Shown one piece after another: positions 34,492 to 40,064 of a DNA stretch of 51,648 nucleotides. The notes under the pieces are model-generated. The model was not told the origin of the DNA, did not search any database, and worked only from the letters and a program-made list of their open reading frames with translations. A program made the position numbers and the translations under genes. Every line of letters starts with the position of its first letter. Within the stretch, counting starts at the first letter, position 1. Source of the DNA: Gaiellales bacterium (GTDB lineage: Bacteria; Actinomycetota; Thermoleophilia; RBG-16-64-13); NCBI GenBank assembly GCA_012719395.1, contig JAAYAL010000012.1:1-51648 (forward strand). Reading direction: 5' to 3'.

Positions 34492-34653
34492 TGCTCCAAG
34501 AAATCGAACGCGAACGCAACCGCGGGCAGCGTCTGTTTTCCGCTTTCTTCAGCTGAATCACCATTCCAGTCGCCGTACGGGGCGGCTTGTCCGGGAGGGT
34601 CAATCCGAGTGTTTGCAGAAGGGGCAAAGTACAGGCCGGAGGGTTCCGCTTCC

Positions 34654-35169
34654 ATGTGCGAATCATGTGGGGTTCAACCGGCTTCGGTGCACGTGGCGCG
34701 GCTGGAGGATGGTCGCATCAGCACGTCTGACCTGTGCCAGAGCTGCGCGCAGGCCCTGGGAGAGGAGATGGGCGGCAACGGCCTGGTCTTCGCACTGCCG
34801 GCGGCGGTCGGTAGGTTCTTCGGCAGCATCATGGGAGTGGAACCACAGGAAGTGGTTGAGGCTGATGGCGGCCCGGACCTTATGTGTGGTGTGTGCGGTA
34901 CCACCACGTCGGATGTGCAGGAGTCGGGGCTGCTTGGTTGCGCTTCCTGCTATGACGTCTTTGAGGGGTATGTGCCGGAGGAGACGGTGGATGAGACTCT
35001 CGATCACCTGGGCAAGGTCCCGGCGCGCAATCCGCAGGGTGCAACGGATCGCAGGGAAGTGCTGCGTCTGCGGAGGATGCTGCGGGAGCTCGTGGACTCG
35101 GAGAGGTATGAAGAGGCCGCCGGCGTCCGTGATCGTTTGGCGGAACTGGGCGAGATGCCCCAGGGCTGA
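34654..35169 (+). CDS. mcsA: McsA-like zinc-finger protein with UVR motif
   Basis: 171 residues from the ATG at 34654 (GGAGGG about 10 bases upstream). A GTG at 34609 would add 15 residues ahead of the family's typical MCxxC start. Two four-Cys zinc units are seen: CESC...CQSC near residues 2-34 and CGVC...CASC near 73-93. A C-terminal UVR helix pair, LRRMLRELVDSERYEEAAGVRDRL, follows at about 140-163. McsA activates the arginine kinase McsB in Bacillus. It is two bases from the mcsB-like gene. CtsR, normally upstream in Bacillota, is absent. Confidence 0.85.
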   Translation: MCESCGVQPASVHVARLEDGRISTSDLCQSCAQALGEEMGGNGLVFALPAAVGRFFGSIMGVEPQEVVEADGGPDLMCGVCGTTTSDVQESGLLGCASCYDVFEGYVPEETVDETLDHLGKVPARNPQGATDRREVLRLRRMLRELVDSERYEEAAGVRDRLAELGEMPQG

Positions 35170-35171
35170 TC

Positions 35172-36188
35172 GTGGATGACACCCTCATCATGGCTACGGG
35201 CTTGCTGGTTGAGCGTAACGAAGCGGTCACGCCGTTTCCCCATGCGGCCCCACCGGAGCTGCTGGAGGAATTGAGCGCTCGCGCCACTGCGTGCCTGCAG
35301 CGTGAGGGCGCCCCGGGTGAGTGGGAGATTCATCCTCTGGACCAGCTTTCGCTGGCCATGCGCGCCTATCTGGTGGAGCGGGGGCTTCTGACGCCGGACT
35401 TCGCCGAGCGCAGCGGATCGGGACGGTTGGCAGGGGTCCTCCATGGCGGCAGGGCGTCGCTGGAGACCAACGGTGCCTCGCACTTCCGCCTCCTGTGCTC
35501 GCGGCCCTCCGACCATCTCATGGAGATGTGGGATGTGGTGGACGGCTTGGATGATGTGCTGGAAGCAGAGTTCGCGTGGGCTTTCCATGACCGGCGCGGG
35601 TACCTGAGCGCGGATCCGGACGTGTGCGGCACCGGGCTTCACGTGCATATCACGCTGGAAATCCCAGTGCTGATGGTGACCGGTCGCTTGGGAGCGCTGG
35701 CTGTGCGCCTCCAGAGCCAGGGTTTCACGCTGGCGCCGGTATGGGAGAGCGCGGGCGGCATGTTTCAGATCTTCAACCGTTCCACTTCCGGTCGCAACGA
35801 AGGCGAGCTCATGACTGCAGCCCTGGATGCGGCGCGTGCGGTGGTGGACAGGGAGAGATCTGCCCGCAAAGCGGTGTATCGCGAGAATCCCGGGAGGGCG
35901 CGTGACTACGTGGGCCGGGCCCTGGGAGTGGCTCAACAGGCCTGGGTCGTGAATGCGGCGGAGGGTGTCAGCCTCATTTCCGCGCTGCAGGTGGGAGGGG
36001 AGTTGGGGGTCACCGAACCGGCTCTTTCGCCGCAGGACGCCTTCGCCCTCATGCGCCGTATTCAGCCCGGGCACATTGTTGTCGAAGAAGTGAGGGCGGC
36101 CCATGGTGGCCTGGAAGAACCCGCGATTGATGAAGCACGCGCCCGGATCCTGCGAGACACGTTTGCAGGCACGCGCGCTCGCAGATAG
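35172..36188 (+). CDS. mcsB: McsB homologue (ATP:guanido phosphotransferase fold), probable pseudokinase
   Basis: 338 residues, clearly collinear with Bacillus McsB: a PFPH start segment, AFHDRRGYLSADPDVCGTG, FQIFNRST, VVDRERSARKAVY and a QPG-type end. The residues known to be needed for arginine phosphorylation are missing. The SSRIR ATP-binding motif reads ATGLL (residues 8-12). The NEEDH motif reads NGASH, losing both catalytic glutamates. The CPTN cysteine is Asp (DPDV). GTGLR reads GTGLH, and the RGxxGEG loop is absent. The protein should lack kinase activity but may remain an adaptor for ClpC. It lies between mcsA and clpC, 2 and 11 bases away. The frame is intact, so it is not a pseudogene. 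Confidence 0.85.
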   Translation: MDDTLIMATGLLVERNEAVTPFPHAAPPELLEELSARATACLQREGAPGEWEIHPLDQLSLAMRAYLVERGLLTPDFAERSGSGRLAGVLHGGRASLETNGASHFRLLCSRPSDHLMEMWDVVDGLDDVLEAEFAWAFHDRRGYLSADPDVCGTGLHVHITLEIPVLMVTGRLGALAVRLQSQGFTLAPVWESAGGMFQIFNRSTSGRNEGELMTAALDAARAVVDRERSARKAVYRENPGRARDYVGRALGVAQQAWVVNAAEGVSLISALQVGGELGVTEPALSPQDAFALMRRIQPGHIVVEEVRAAHGGLEEPAIDEARARILRDTFAGTRARR

Positions 36189-36199
36189 AGGAGAGCAGC

Positions 36200-38692
36200 A
36201 TGTTTGAGCGTTTCACGGAGAGGGCTCGGCAGGTCGTGGTCTTGGCGCAGGAAGAAGCCCGGGACCTGAAGCACAACTACATCGGCACAGAACACCTCCT
36301 GTTGGGATTGCTGCGGGAGGGTGACGGGGTGGCCGCCCGGGTGCTCTCGGCGCTCGATGTCTCATTGGAAGATGTCCGAGGCGAGGTCATGCGCATCGTG
36401 GGTGAGGGCGAGCATGAGGCTCAGGGGCAGATCCCCTTCACGCCGCGGGCGAAGAAGGTGCTGGAGCTGGCGCTGCGCGAGGCGCTGTCTCTGGGCCACA
36501 ACTACATCGGGACCGAGCACATCCTGCTTGGGCTGGTGCGGGAGAGCGAGGGTGTGGCCGCCCGGGTGCTGGCGGACCTTGACGCGGATGCGGACCGCAT
36601 CCGTCAAGAGGTCATGCGCGTGCTGTCCGGGCCCAGCCGTCGTACCGCCAAGACAGGGGCCGGGCCGGCCGCCGTGCCCGCGGGGAGCAAGAAGGGCTCC
36701 AAGGTGCTGGACCAGTTCGGGCGCAATCTCACGCAGTACGCGGAAGAGGATAAGCTGGATCCCGTGGTGGGCCGCCAGGTGGAGATCGAGCGGGTCATGC
36801 AGATCCTCTCGCGTCGCACCAAGAACAACCCGGTGCTGGTAGGCGAGCCGGGGGTGGGCAAGACGGCGGTGGTAGAGGGGTTGGCTCAGCTGATCTCGCA
36901 CGGCGAGGTCCCCGAATTGCTGCGCGACAAGCAGATCTACACGCTGGACCTGGGCGCACTGGTGGCCGGTTCCAAGTATCGGGGCGAGTTTGAGGAACGG
37001 CTCAAGAAAGTGATGAAGGAGATCGCCGAACGGGGAGATATCATCCTGTTCATTGACGAGATCCACAATCTGGTGGGCGCGGGCGCCGCGGAGGGCGCTA
37101 TCGATGCTGCCTCCATTCTCAAGCCGGCCTTGGCCCGCGGCGAGCTGCAGACCATCGGCGCCACCACCCTGGACGAGTACCGCAAGCATCTGGCCAAGGA
37201 TGCCGCGCTGGAGCGCCGTTTCCAGCAGATCCTGGTGCGCGAGCCCACCGTGGAGGAGACCATCCGCATTCTGGAGGGCCTGCGGGATCGCTACGAGGCC
37301 CACCACCGCGTGCGCATTGCGGACGAGGCACTCAATGCCGCCGCCAACCTGGCGGATCGCTACATATCTGATCGTTTCCTGCCGGACAAGGCCATCGACC
37401 TGGTGGATGAGGCGGGTTCGCGCAAGCGCATCCTGACCATGACCTCTCCTCCGGACTGCAAAGAGTTGGAGGAGCGCATCCAGTCGGTGCGCAAGGAGAA
37501 GGAAGCAGCCATCGAGAACCAGGAGTTCGAGAAGGCCGCCAACCTCCGGGATCGCGAGCGGCGCATGATCCAGGAGAAGCGCGAACTGGAGGAGCGCTGG
37601 CGCAACTCGGAGGAGGGTGACCGCGTGTCCGTGGGCGAGGAAGAGATCGCCGAGATCGTGGGCATGTGGACCGGCATTCCCGTGGCCAAGCTCACCGAGA
37701 CGGAGGCCAAGAAGCTCCTGCGTATGGAAGAGGAACTGCACAAGCGGGTGGTGGGGCAGGACGAAGCGCTGCTGGCGGTGGCCAAGGCCATCCGCCGCTC
37801 GCGTGCCAATCTGAGTGACCCTCGCCGGCCCACGGGCAGCTTCGTCTTCCTGGGACCTTCTGGTGTGGGCAAGACGGAACTGGCGCGGACCCTGGCCGAG
37901 TTCCTCTTCGGTGACGAGGACTCGCTCATCCAGGTGGATATGTCGGAGTACATGGAGAAGCACGCTGTCAGTCGCCTGTTGGGTTCGCCGCCCGGTTACG
38001 TTGGTTACGAGGAGGGTGGGCAACTGACGGAGGCGGTGCGTCGCCGGCCGTACTCGGTGGTGCTGCTGGATGAGATCGAGAAGGCACACCCGGACGTCTT
38101 CAACATCCTGCTGCAGATCTTGGAGGACGGGCGCCTGACTGACGCCCAGGGGCGCACGGTGGACTTCCGCAATACCATCGTCATCATGACCTCGAATATC
38201 GGTGCGGCCACCATCTCCAAAGGTCAGGTGCTGGGTTTCGCCGACCAGGTGGCGGAGGGCGGCTTGGAGTATGAGGACATGAAGGATCGGGTCATGGGCG
38301 AGCTCAAGCGGATCTTCCGTCCTGAGTTCCTCAACCGGATCGACGAAGTCATCGTGTTCCACAAGCTGACCAAGGCTCAGATCAAGGACATCATTGATCT
38401 CATGCTGGAGCGCCTGCGCGAGCAGATGAAAGAGCGGGACCTCAGCGTGGAGGTCACGGAAAACGCCAAGGAGTTGCTGGTGGAGCAGGGGTTTGACCCC
38501 GCCATGGGCGCTCGGCCGCTGCGCAGAGCCATCCAGCACAACGTGGAGGACCTGCTGGCCGACGAGATCCTGGCGGAGAAGGTGCCCAACGGCAGCACGG
38601 TGGTGCTGGAGCGTGAAGAGGACCACTTGGTGATCGCGGAGATCATCAAGAAGCAGCCGGAGGAGGTTCTCGTCGGCGACGAAGCCAAGTAG
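36200..38692 (+). CDS. clpC: ATP-dependent Clp protease ATP-binding subunit ClpC
   Basis: 830 residues. The N-terminal double repeat contains GTEHLLLGL and GTEHILLGL; Glu31 and Glu106 correspond to the two phospho-arginine pocket glutamates of Bacillus ClpC. The first AAA module has GEPGVGKT and a Walker B ending IDEIHNL. A coiled-coil middle domain with a UVR-like stretch follows, and the second AAA module has [11 protein letters not shown]. The IGF-type ClpP-docking loop seems to correspond to the VLGFADQ stretch. The SD is GAGGAGAG. It unfolds substrates for ClpP and is the third gene of the mcsA-mcsB-clpC unit. Confidence 0.96.
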
Positions 38693-38702
38693 AGGCGGCC
38701 GG

Positions 38703-40064
38703 ACGCGCAGCGTCTTCACCTGCAGCTCGTGTGGGTATCAGAGTCCGCGCTGGCTGGGGCGCTGCCCTGGGTGTTCGGCCTGGAACACGTTGATCGAGGA
38801 AGCCCTGGTGGAGACAAAGGCAGGGGCGGCCACCGGTACGGTGGCCGCCCCTGCCTTGCTGCTGCTGGATACGGTGGTCTCCGGCAGCGAGGATCGCATG
38901 TCGACCGGTCTGGCCGAGCTGGACCGCGTCCTGGGTGGCGGGCTGGTGGCGGGATCGCTGGTCCTTCTGGGCGGGGAGCCGGGCATCGGCAAAAGCACGC
39001 TGCTGCTACAGATGCTGTTGGAACTGGACCGCGGCGGTGTGCCGGTGGTGCTGGTGTCGGGCGAGGAATCACCGGCGCAGGTCAAGATGCGCGCCCGCCG
39101 GCTGGCCGAAGGTACGGGAGGGCTGCGGCTGCTGCCGGAGACCCAGGTGGAGAAGGTGGTCGCTTCGCTGGAGCGGGACTCGGTATCCGTCTGTGTGGTT
39201 GACTCGGTACAAACGCTGTGGACACCGGAGGTGGGGGGAGCAGCGGGGTCGGTGAGCCAGATCCGTGAAGCGACCGGTCATCTGCTGCGGGTGGCCAAGG
39301 AGCACAACGTGGCTGTGGTGCTGGTGGGTCACGTTACCAAAGATGGGTTTCTGGCGGGGCCGCGGGTGTTGGAGCACATGGTCGATGTCGTCCTGGCTTT
39401 CGAAGGCGATCGTGCGCACAGCTATCGACTGCTGCGCTCCGTCAAGAATCGTTTTGGCTCCACCAACGAAGTGGGTGTGTTCCAGATGGGCACGCGCGGC
39501 CTGGAAGGCGTGCCTGATCCCACCTCGCTGTTCCTGGAGGACACGGAACCCAGCTCTGGATCGGCGATAGTTGCCTCCGTGGAGGGCAGCCGCTGCCTGC
39601 TGGCCGAGATCCAGGCACTGGTGGTTCCCAGTGGCTTGGCGGTGCCGCGCCGGGTGGGGCGGGGTGTGGACAGGAATCGCATGGCCATGGTGGCGGCGGT
39701 GTTGACTCGGAAGGTCGGGCTGCGCTTGGCGGATCAGGACGTCTTCGTCAATGTGGCGGGCGGGCTTACGTTGGAGGATCCGGCCTCGGATCTGCCACTG
39801 GCGTTGGCCATCGCCTCTTCACTGCAGGAGAAGCAGGTCCCGGCAGAGGTGGCGGCCTTTGGCGAGGTGAGTCTCACAGGTCACGTGCGGTACGCCGCGC
39901 AGGGTGGAAAGCGGCTGCAGGAGCTGGTGCGTCGCGGTTTCAAGAAGGTATGGCTGCCACAGCGTAACCTGCAGGAAGCGCGTGAACAGGGTATAGTTGC
40001 TCCGGGTGTAGAGCTGCTCCCGGTCTTGGAGTTGCGGGAGGCAGTGAAGGGGGTCCTTGTTTAG
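38703..40064 (+). CDS. radA: DNA repair protein RadA with no standard start codon
   Basis: A 453-residue frame if read from the ACG at 38703, close to the family length. The N-terminal zinc finger is complete: FTCSSCGYQSPRWLG then CPGCSAWNTL. No ATG, GTG, TTG or CTG occurs in this frame between the stop at 38631 and the finger. ACG 38703 lies seven bases after GAGG, where the start should be. TTG 38790 is possible but would remove the whole finger. The linker carries a 19-bp hairpin. The RecA-like domain has GEPGIGKST and the KNRFGSTNEVGVF motif, and a Lon-like C-terminal domain follows. RadA promotes branch migration in recombination. Confidence 0.9.
   Translation, partial: TRSVFTCSSCGYQSPRWLGRCPGCSAWNTLIEEALVETKAGAATGTVAAPALLLLDTVVSGSEDRMSTGLAELDRVLGGGLVAGSLVLLGGEPGIGKSTLLLQMLLELDRGGVPVVLVSGEESPAQVKMRARRLAEGTGGLRLLPETQVEKVVASLERDSVSVCVVDSVQTLWTPEVGGAAGSVSQIREATGHLLRVAKEHNVAVVLVGHVTKDGFLAGPRVLEHMVDVVLAFEGDRAHSYRLLRSVKNRFGSTNEVGVFQMGTRGLEGVPDPTSLFLEDTEPSSGSAIVASVEGSRCLLAEIQALVVPSGLAVPRRVGRGVDRNRMAMVAAVLTRKVGLRLADQDVFVNVAGGLTLEDPASDLPLALAIASSLQEKQVPAEVAAFGEVSLTGHVRYAAQGGKRLQELVRRGFKKVWLPQRNLQEAREQGIVAPGVELLPVLELREAVKGVLV
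38817..38857. repeat. perfect 19-bp inverted repeat inside radA
   Basis: Arms 38817-38835 and 38839-38857 are exactly complementary, loop GTA. It begins AAGGCAGG and ends CCTGCCTT, and is followed by TGCTGCTGC, so it has the look of an intrinsic terminator without a U-run. It encodes the Ala/Gly/Val-rich linker between the RadA zinc finger and ATPase. Confidence 0.8.

Follow-up and report, generated by a model that had tools for sequence, protein, structure and literature searches.

Kinase activity of McsB from Bacillus subtilis depends on seven arginine residues, as each of the substitutions R29K, R31K, R34K, R125K, R176K, R207K, and R337K abolishes it (PMC7235348). The C167S mutant is used as an inactive form of McsB in the same bacterium, and it stabilises MgsR less than deletion of mcsB does, which its authors read as a kinase-independent adaptor function (PMC7235348). 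Both the stimulation of ClpC by B. subtilis McsB and its function as an adaptor reportedly require, for the most part, that the kinase be active, and a review describes the adaptor and kinase functions as difficult to dissect and as going together in this species (PMC5506225). In unstressed B. subtilis cells McsB is bound to ClpC, and thiol stress is sensed by the zinc fingers of McsA (PMC5506225). In Staphylococcus aureus, the C-terminal zinc finger of McsA binds the McsB loop Tyr147-Tyr153 and orients the catalytic cysteine (PMC12467219; 8GQD). Phosphoarginine (pArg) phosphatases of the YwlE type have threonine at position 5 of the P-loop (PMC8001253). In mycobacteria, phosphoarginine and a pArg-binding ClpC are reported without a known McsB homologue (PMC9604228).

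The window analysed here is a stretch of 51,648 nucleotides from an assembly that is 2.43 Mb in size and 98% complete. It contains an mcsB-like gene between mcsA and clpC (Table 1). The mcsB-like reading frame starts with GTG and is unbroken over 338 codons; it follows the end of mcsA after a gap of 2 nt, clpC starts 11 bases downstream, and radA and disA come next. The encoded protein scores 79.3 bits with PF00217 (ATP:guanido phosphotransferase; cut-off 22.4), and the NCBIfam McsB model NF002194 aligns residues 4-332 to model positions 13-341 of 345 with 145.8 bits. The protein scores below the NCBIfam McsB equivalog cut-offs (145.8 versus 385 bits and 121.2 versus 500 bits), and its top PDB sequence matches are McsB of B. 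subtilis and Geobacillus stearothermophilus (E 3e-28). The neighbouring McsA reaches 80 bits with NF053706, under the equivalog cut-off of 210, and matches UVR PF02151, and all eight of its zinc-finger cysteines align with those of B. subtilis McsA. The window ClpC contains GTEH twice, keeping both N-domain motifs (pArg sites), but these do not discriminate, since GTEH is reported to be conserved across actinobacterial ClpC generally (PMC9604228). ClpP is also present in the window genome. A preliminary description of this DNA had placed an intact, McsB-collinear gene between mcsA and clpC, and the reading frame, the NCBIfam alignment, and the neighbours agree with it. By its PF00217 match, its predicted full-length fold, and the gene order mcsA-mcsB-clpC, the gene is a true McsB orthologue. 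The loci of its close relatives belong to MAGs labelled Actinomycetota, Actinobacteria, or Thermoleophilia, including RBG_16_64_13, and a Firmicute host is rejected because these relatives are Actinomycetota MAGs. We note that a 785-codon open frame lies antisense to clpC (window 36362-38719, minus strand), most likely a by-product of G+C-rich codon usage.

Table 1 Features of the mcsA-mcsB-clpC locus, in window positions.
Feature	Position	Strand	Basis or remark
mcsA	34609..35169	+	186 aa; two Cys4 zinc fingers and UVR motif
mcsB-like gene, putative pseudokinase	35172..36188	+	338 aa; intact ORF, PF00217, McsB NCBIfam models, PDB and Foldseek matches
ATGLL replacing SSRIR; Arg29 and Arg31 lost	35193..35207	+	alignment to B. 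subtilis McsB
NGASH replacing NEEDH; Glu120 and Glu121 lost	35469..35483	+	Gly at 120 invariant in family f1
Retained McsA zinc-finger contact loop FHDRRGY	35583..35603	+	equals B. subtilis Phe157-Tyr163, alignment
DPDV replacing CPTN; Cys167 lost	35613..35624	+	alignment to B. subtilis McsB
GTGLH replacing GTGLR; Arg176 to His	35628..35642	+	within family f1 in window genome only
Lid APVWESAGG (f1 consensus PLWGGAGG) replacing RGxYGEGxxxxGN; Arg207 and Glu212 lost	35733..35759	+	4 aa shorter
DEARA segment, D338xxR341A part of pArg-receptor motif; Arg337 to Ile	36129..36143	+	
clpC	36200..38692	+	830 aa; Clp_N x2, AAA_2, UVR

Residue numbering throughout is that of B. subtilis McsB. The B. subtilis sequence in our alignments agrees with the PDB alignments over the part that they cover and with all residues named in PMC7235348. 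The five motif changes listed in the preliminary description are all seen in this alignment: SSRIR, NEEDH, and CPTN are replaced as it had stated, GTGLR has become GTGLH, though this change is particular to the window genome, and the RGxxGEG loop is lost, with RGIYGEG of B. subtilis giving way to APVWESAGG in a lid four residues shorter. Among the seven essential arginines, the window protein retains Arg34 and Arg125 only, and Cys167, Glu121, and Glu212 are all absent. The window copy has the extra losses R176H and D122S, the latter also found in its nearest relative.

We refer to the family-level Actinomycetota group of the window as f1, represented by 18 McsB sequences from 17 genomes and 11 genera. 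Arg29, Arg31, Glu120, Cys167, Arg207, and the lid glutamate are missing in all 18 sequences, and the RGxYGEGxxxxGN lid is replaced in each of them by a conserved PLWGGAGG-type loop that is four residues shorter. Glu121 is replaced in 15 of the 18, and position 176 is Arg in 15, Lys in two, and His in the window protein. Arg34 and His123 are retained throughout and Arg125 in 15/18. At the pArg-receptor site, D338, R341, and A342 are invariant (18/18) and R337 is absent (18/18); R337 is likewise absent from motif-intact actinobacterial McsB. Four of the five motif losses, all but GTGLH, are common to the whole family in these alignments, which is far beyond chance. The preliminary description had proposed this comparison with characterised McsB and relatives, and had held that relatives with intact motifs would mark the copy as merely decaying; no such copy occurs in the 17 f1 genomes and 11 genera.

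PF00217 was found in 17 of 18 f1 genomes, the single negative genome being 78% complete, and in none of 43 other sampled class members. While a single-sequence scan of genome contigs gave no matches, a search with the f1 family alignment recovered the relatives, detecting the gene in 17 of 299 class genomes, every one of them f1. The distribution of McsA coincides with that of McsB, covering the same 17 genomes and 0/23 others from the class, and each f1 McsA inspected keeps all eight zinc-finger cysteines. The order mcsA-mcsB-clpC is contiguous in the window and in 16/16 other f1 loci examined. Upstream of the operon, lysS is found in 14 of these 16 (one of the remaining contigs starts at mcsA, and locus L030 is without lysS across 5.4 kb), and radA lies downstream of clpC wherever the contig extends that far. 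ClpC identity across f1 is 78-88%. The dN/dS ratio of mcsB is 0.05-0.13 in five f1 pairs, and 0.15 (window versus nearest relative) and 0.22 in two further pairs in which dS is saturated; these values are similar to those of mcsA and higher than those of clpC. The f1 mcsB is under purifying selection, and with the losses shared by all members this lends good support to the earlier view of a pseudokinase that is kept and not decaying. One MAG with 7% contamination (G007) has two McsA-McsB pairs (L018 and L008), perhaps reflecting contamination rather than paralogues.

The AlphaFold2 model of the window McsB, run on 19 sequences, has a pLDDT of 82.6 and a pTM of 0.80, and its least confident parts include the McsA-contact loop region (about residues 131-150). 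The top Foldseek matches in the PDB are full-length McsB (6tv6, TM 0.84; 6fh3, 0.84) over ~330 columns, with a TM range of 0.82-0.84 over 6tv6, 6fh1, and 6fh3 and both the phosphotransferase and dimerisation domains covered. The McsA-contact loop has a mean entropy of 0.58 in f1 versus 1.03 in kinase-intact actinobacterial McsB, and the initial stretch of the dimerisation domain 0.96 versus 1.39, whereas the Cys segment is less conserved in f1 (1.13 versus 0.90); as the f1 set is phylogenetically narrower, the contrast between segments outweighs the single entropy values. Near the old active site and the lid, Glu117, Gly120, Pro208, Trp210, and Gly219 have newly become invariant, or nearly so, in f1, which suggests a rebuilt surface and not an abandoned one.

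The f1 protein resembles the McsB kinases of B. subtilis, G. stearothermophilus, and S. aureus (6TV6, 6FH1-3, 8GQD) in its predicted full-length two-domain fold, its operon position between mcsA and clpC, the McsA-contact loop, and the dimerisation-domain residues Arg255, Arg272, Asp338, and Arg341. Unlike these kinases, it has no catalytic Cys, lacks Glu residues as well as four to five of those seven arginines, carries a lid that is shortened by four residues and has a new, conserved sequence, and has an N-terminus ~19 residues shorter, at an identity of about 24-26%. The laboratory mutant C167S of B. subtilis is comparable as an McsB without kinase activity, a loss that is inferred in f1; C167S is one engineered change, whereas the loss in f1 would be natural and clade-wide and concern the whole site. 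Bacterial serine-threonine pseudokinases are dead kinases retained for regulation, as is proposed for f1 McsB, but the f1 protein has the unrelated phosphagen/guanido-kinase fold.

The rest of a Bacillus-type phosphoarginine pathway was searched for as well. No second guanido kinase was found in the window genome, so that a second, intact one taking over is rejected. CtsR was detected in 0/41 relatives and 0/23 other McsB-bearing actinobacteria, in a search whose Lactococcus lactis control was detected and in which B. subtilis was not among the controls reported as detected; the window has no match to the CIRCE element, and the window genome has no match to an LMW-type phosphatase (LMWPc). The locus differs from the Bacillus-type CtsR/McsA/McsB/YwlE circuit in having no CtsR and no YwlE-type phosphatase in the window genome, and a circuit of that type is rejected because no CtsR was found in the genomes searched. 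LMW phosphatase matches occur in only 2 of 13 f1 genomes, and these are arsenate-reductase-like or otherwise without CxGNxCRS, the motif being found in 0/13 f1 genomes tested. A CxGNxCRS phosphatase occurs in 0/18 kinase-dead versus 12/16 kinase-kept genomes (Fisher 3e-6). In three phylogenetically independent pairs, a sign test on this association is not significant, and at the specificity position nearly all CxGNxCRS phosphatases found carry Ile, as the pTyr type does, in place of the Thr of pArg phosphatases. The paired loss of the phosphatase is therefore only suggestive.

McsB between mcsA and clpC is also found in other Actinomycetota families. In the families f28, f13, f56, f48, f50, and f11, SSRxRxARN, NEEDH, and RGxxGEG are mostly kept; these proteins share the phylum and the mcsA-mcsB-clpC order with f1, but they mostly keep the RGxxGEGxxxxGN lid, and most such genomes carry a CxGNxCRS phosphatase. 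Loci L042-L057, L062, and L066, from several Actinomycetota families, have mostly intact McsB motifs without CtsR. In a McsB tree computed without the motif columns, the f1 sequences form a single clade (100/100), whose stem, at 1.33 changes per site, exceeds every other internal branch in length, and its sister is probably the group of f28, f43, and f48 (support 94/91). Loss of at least two of seven key residues maps to five changes, in f1, f43, two f12 lineages, and one Verrucomicrobiales sequence, by a parsimony count on a single tree that leaves out members of f28 and f13 differing at one residue.

The two f43 sequences (L046 and L047, from one genus) have NSHNH or NAQNH in place of NEEDH, Ser for Cys167, GRG for the GEG of the lid, and Lys for Arg125. 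This is apparently a second, independent loss of McsB kinase motifs, as judged from the alignment, and nucleotide binding may persist in f43, as Arg29, Arg31, Arg176, and Arg207 are retained. In f12, one of the two McsB lineages with lost key residues (L058-L061 and L063; L064, L065, and L067) lacks the lid residues Arg207 and Glu212, and the other lacks Arg29, Arg31, Glu121, and Arg207. Their sisters L062 and L066 are largely motif-intact; mcsA adjoins, and clpC is next wherever the contig reaches. The Verrucomicrobiales McsB-like gene (L037:6001-6813) lies upstream of clpC and carries R29I, R125V, R176Q, R207H, and C167Q; no mcsA was detected at this locus with the window McsA as query.

Taken together, these observations make it very probable that f1 McsB has lost arginine-kinase activity, most likely in the ancestor of this one Actinomycetota family, after which the protein would have been kept in a non-catalytic form. 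Gene decay or an assembly error could account for the extra losses R176H and D122S in the window copy, but this is hardly credible and we reject it: the family-wide motif losses are shared by 17 genomes of different projects and 11 genera, without internal stops and with dN/dS of 0.05-0.13, and the nearest relative has D122S too. Some relatives may still bind nucleotide or have residual activity, as Arg34, His123, and mostly Arg125 and Arg176 remain. The conserved new cleft could also serve a different reaction or ligand instead. Continued phosphotransfer by a reorganised active site, using another catalytic base or acceptor, would fit the invariant Arg34 and His123, the Arg125 and Arg176 of most members, and the strong conservation of cleft and lid with their new near-invariant residues. 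We consider it improbable, because the protein has lost Cys167, Glu120, Arg29, Arg31, Arg207, and the lid Glu all together, 15/18 members lack Glu121 as well, the lid has shrunk by four residues, and the window genome is also without Arg176.

The reading we prefer is that the McsB pseudokinase, together with McsA, serves ClpC as an adaptor or activity switch that needs no phosphorylation, and as a whole statement we hold it somewhat more probable than its negation. The preliminary description had suggested an adaptor of this kind. An adaptor role is plausible from synteny, McsA co-occurrence, and conserved interfaces, and the partial effect of C167S in B. subtilis (PMC7235348) speaks for it as well. 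The zinc fingers of McsA would go on binding McsB at its conserved FxxxxGYL loop, the kept dimerisation domain would hold the McsA-McsB assembly together, and the assembly would dock on the co-encoded ClpC and control ClpCP, possibly in a redox-sensitive manner through the McsA zinc fingers; the rebuilt conserved cleft and lid may serve as a binding surface and not as a catalytic site. The adaptor role is not simply transferable to f1, because in B. subtilis this function of McsB reportedly requires an active kinase (PMC5506225). It is less likely, but a serious candidate, that the pseudokinase mainly inhibits or holds ClpC as a brake or assembly partner, or senses redox state with McsA, and delivers no substrates. 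The fixed operon and the intact McsA cysteines are in line with this, as are the presence of B. subtilis McsB on unstressed ClpC and the sensing of thiol stress by McsA zinc fingers (PMC5506225), while the conserved rebuilt cleft hints at ligand or substrate binding, and the results fit inhibition and delivery alike. There is also a slim chance that the dead McsB reads phosphoarginine, with some unknown kinase as its source, and hands it to ClpC. Both GTEH pArg sites of ClpC and the invariant D338 and R341 speak for such a reader, as does pArg in actinobacteria without known McsB (PMC9604228), but the receptor-site R337 is lost in 18/18; the 13/13 tested f1 genomes without a CxGNxCRS LMW phosphatase speak against a pArg cycle like those already described.

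In the open-licence literature, a scope outside which most subscription papers fall, we met with no account of an McsB that is kinase-dead by nature. We see about an even chance that a natural, clade-wide, kinase-independent McsA-McsB-ClpC protein quality control exists in Actinomycetota, with McsB turned into a pseudokinase dedicated to ClpC and with the kinase site lost repeatedly across lineages. It is worth noting that the host is an actinobacterium, whereas experimental work on McsB comes from Firmicutes, and that McsB occurs here in deep Actinomycetota, a phylum whose mycobacteria are reported to contain pArg although no McsB homologue is known from them (PMC9604228). The preliminary description had overlooked the actinobacterial host, the clade-wide extent of the feature, and the recurrence of similar losses in further lineages. 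As f1 has kept McsB, McsA, and ClpC but discarded the kinase site, its members would provide natural separation-of-function proteins, in which the adaptor question is directly testable. If the repeated loss of the kinase site in f1, f43, the two f12 lineages, and Verrucomicrobiales is true, it would mean that the non-catalytic function of McsB outlasts its kinase activity.
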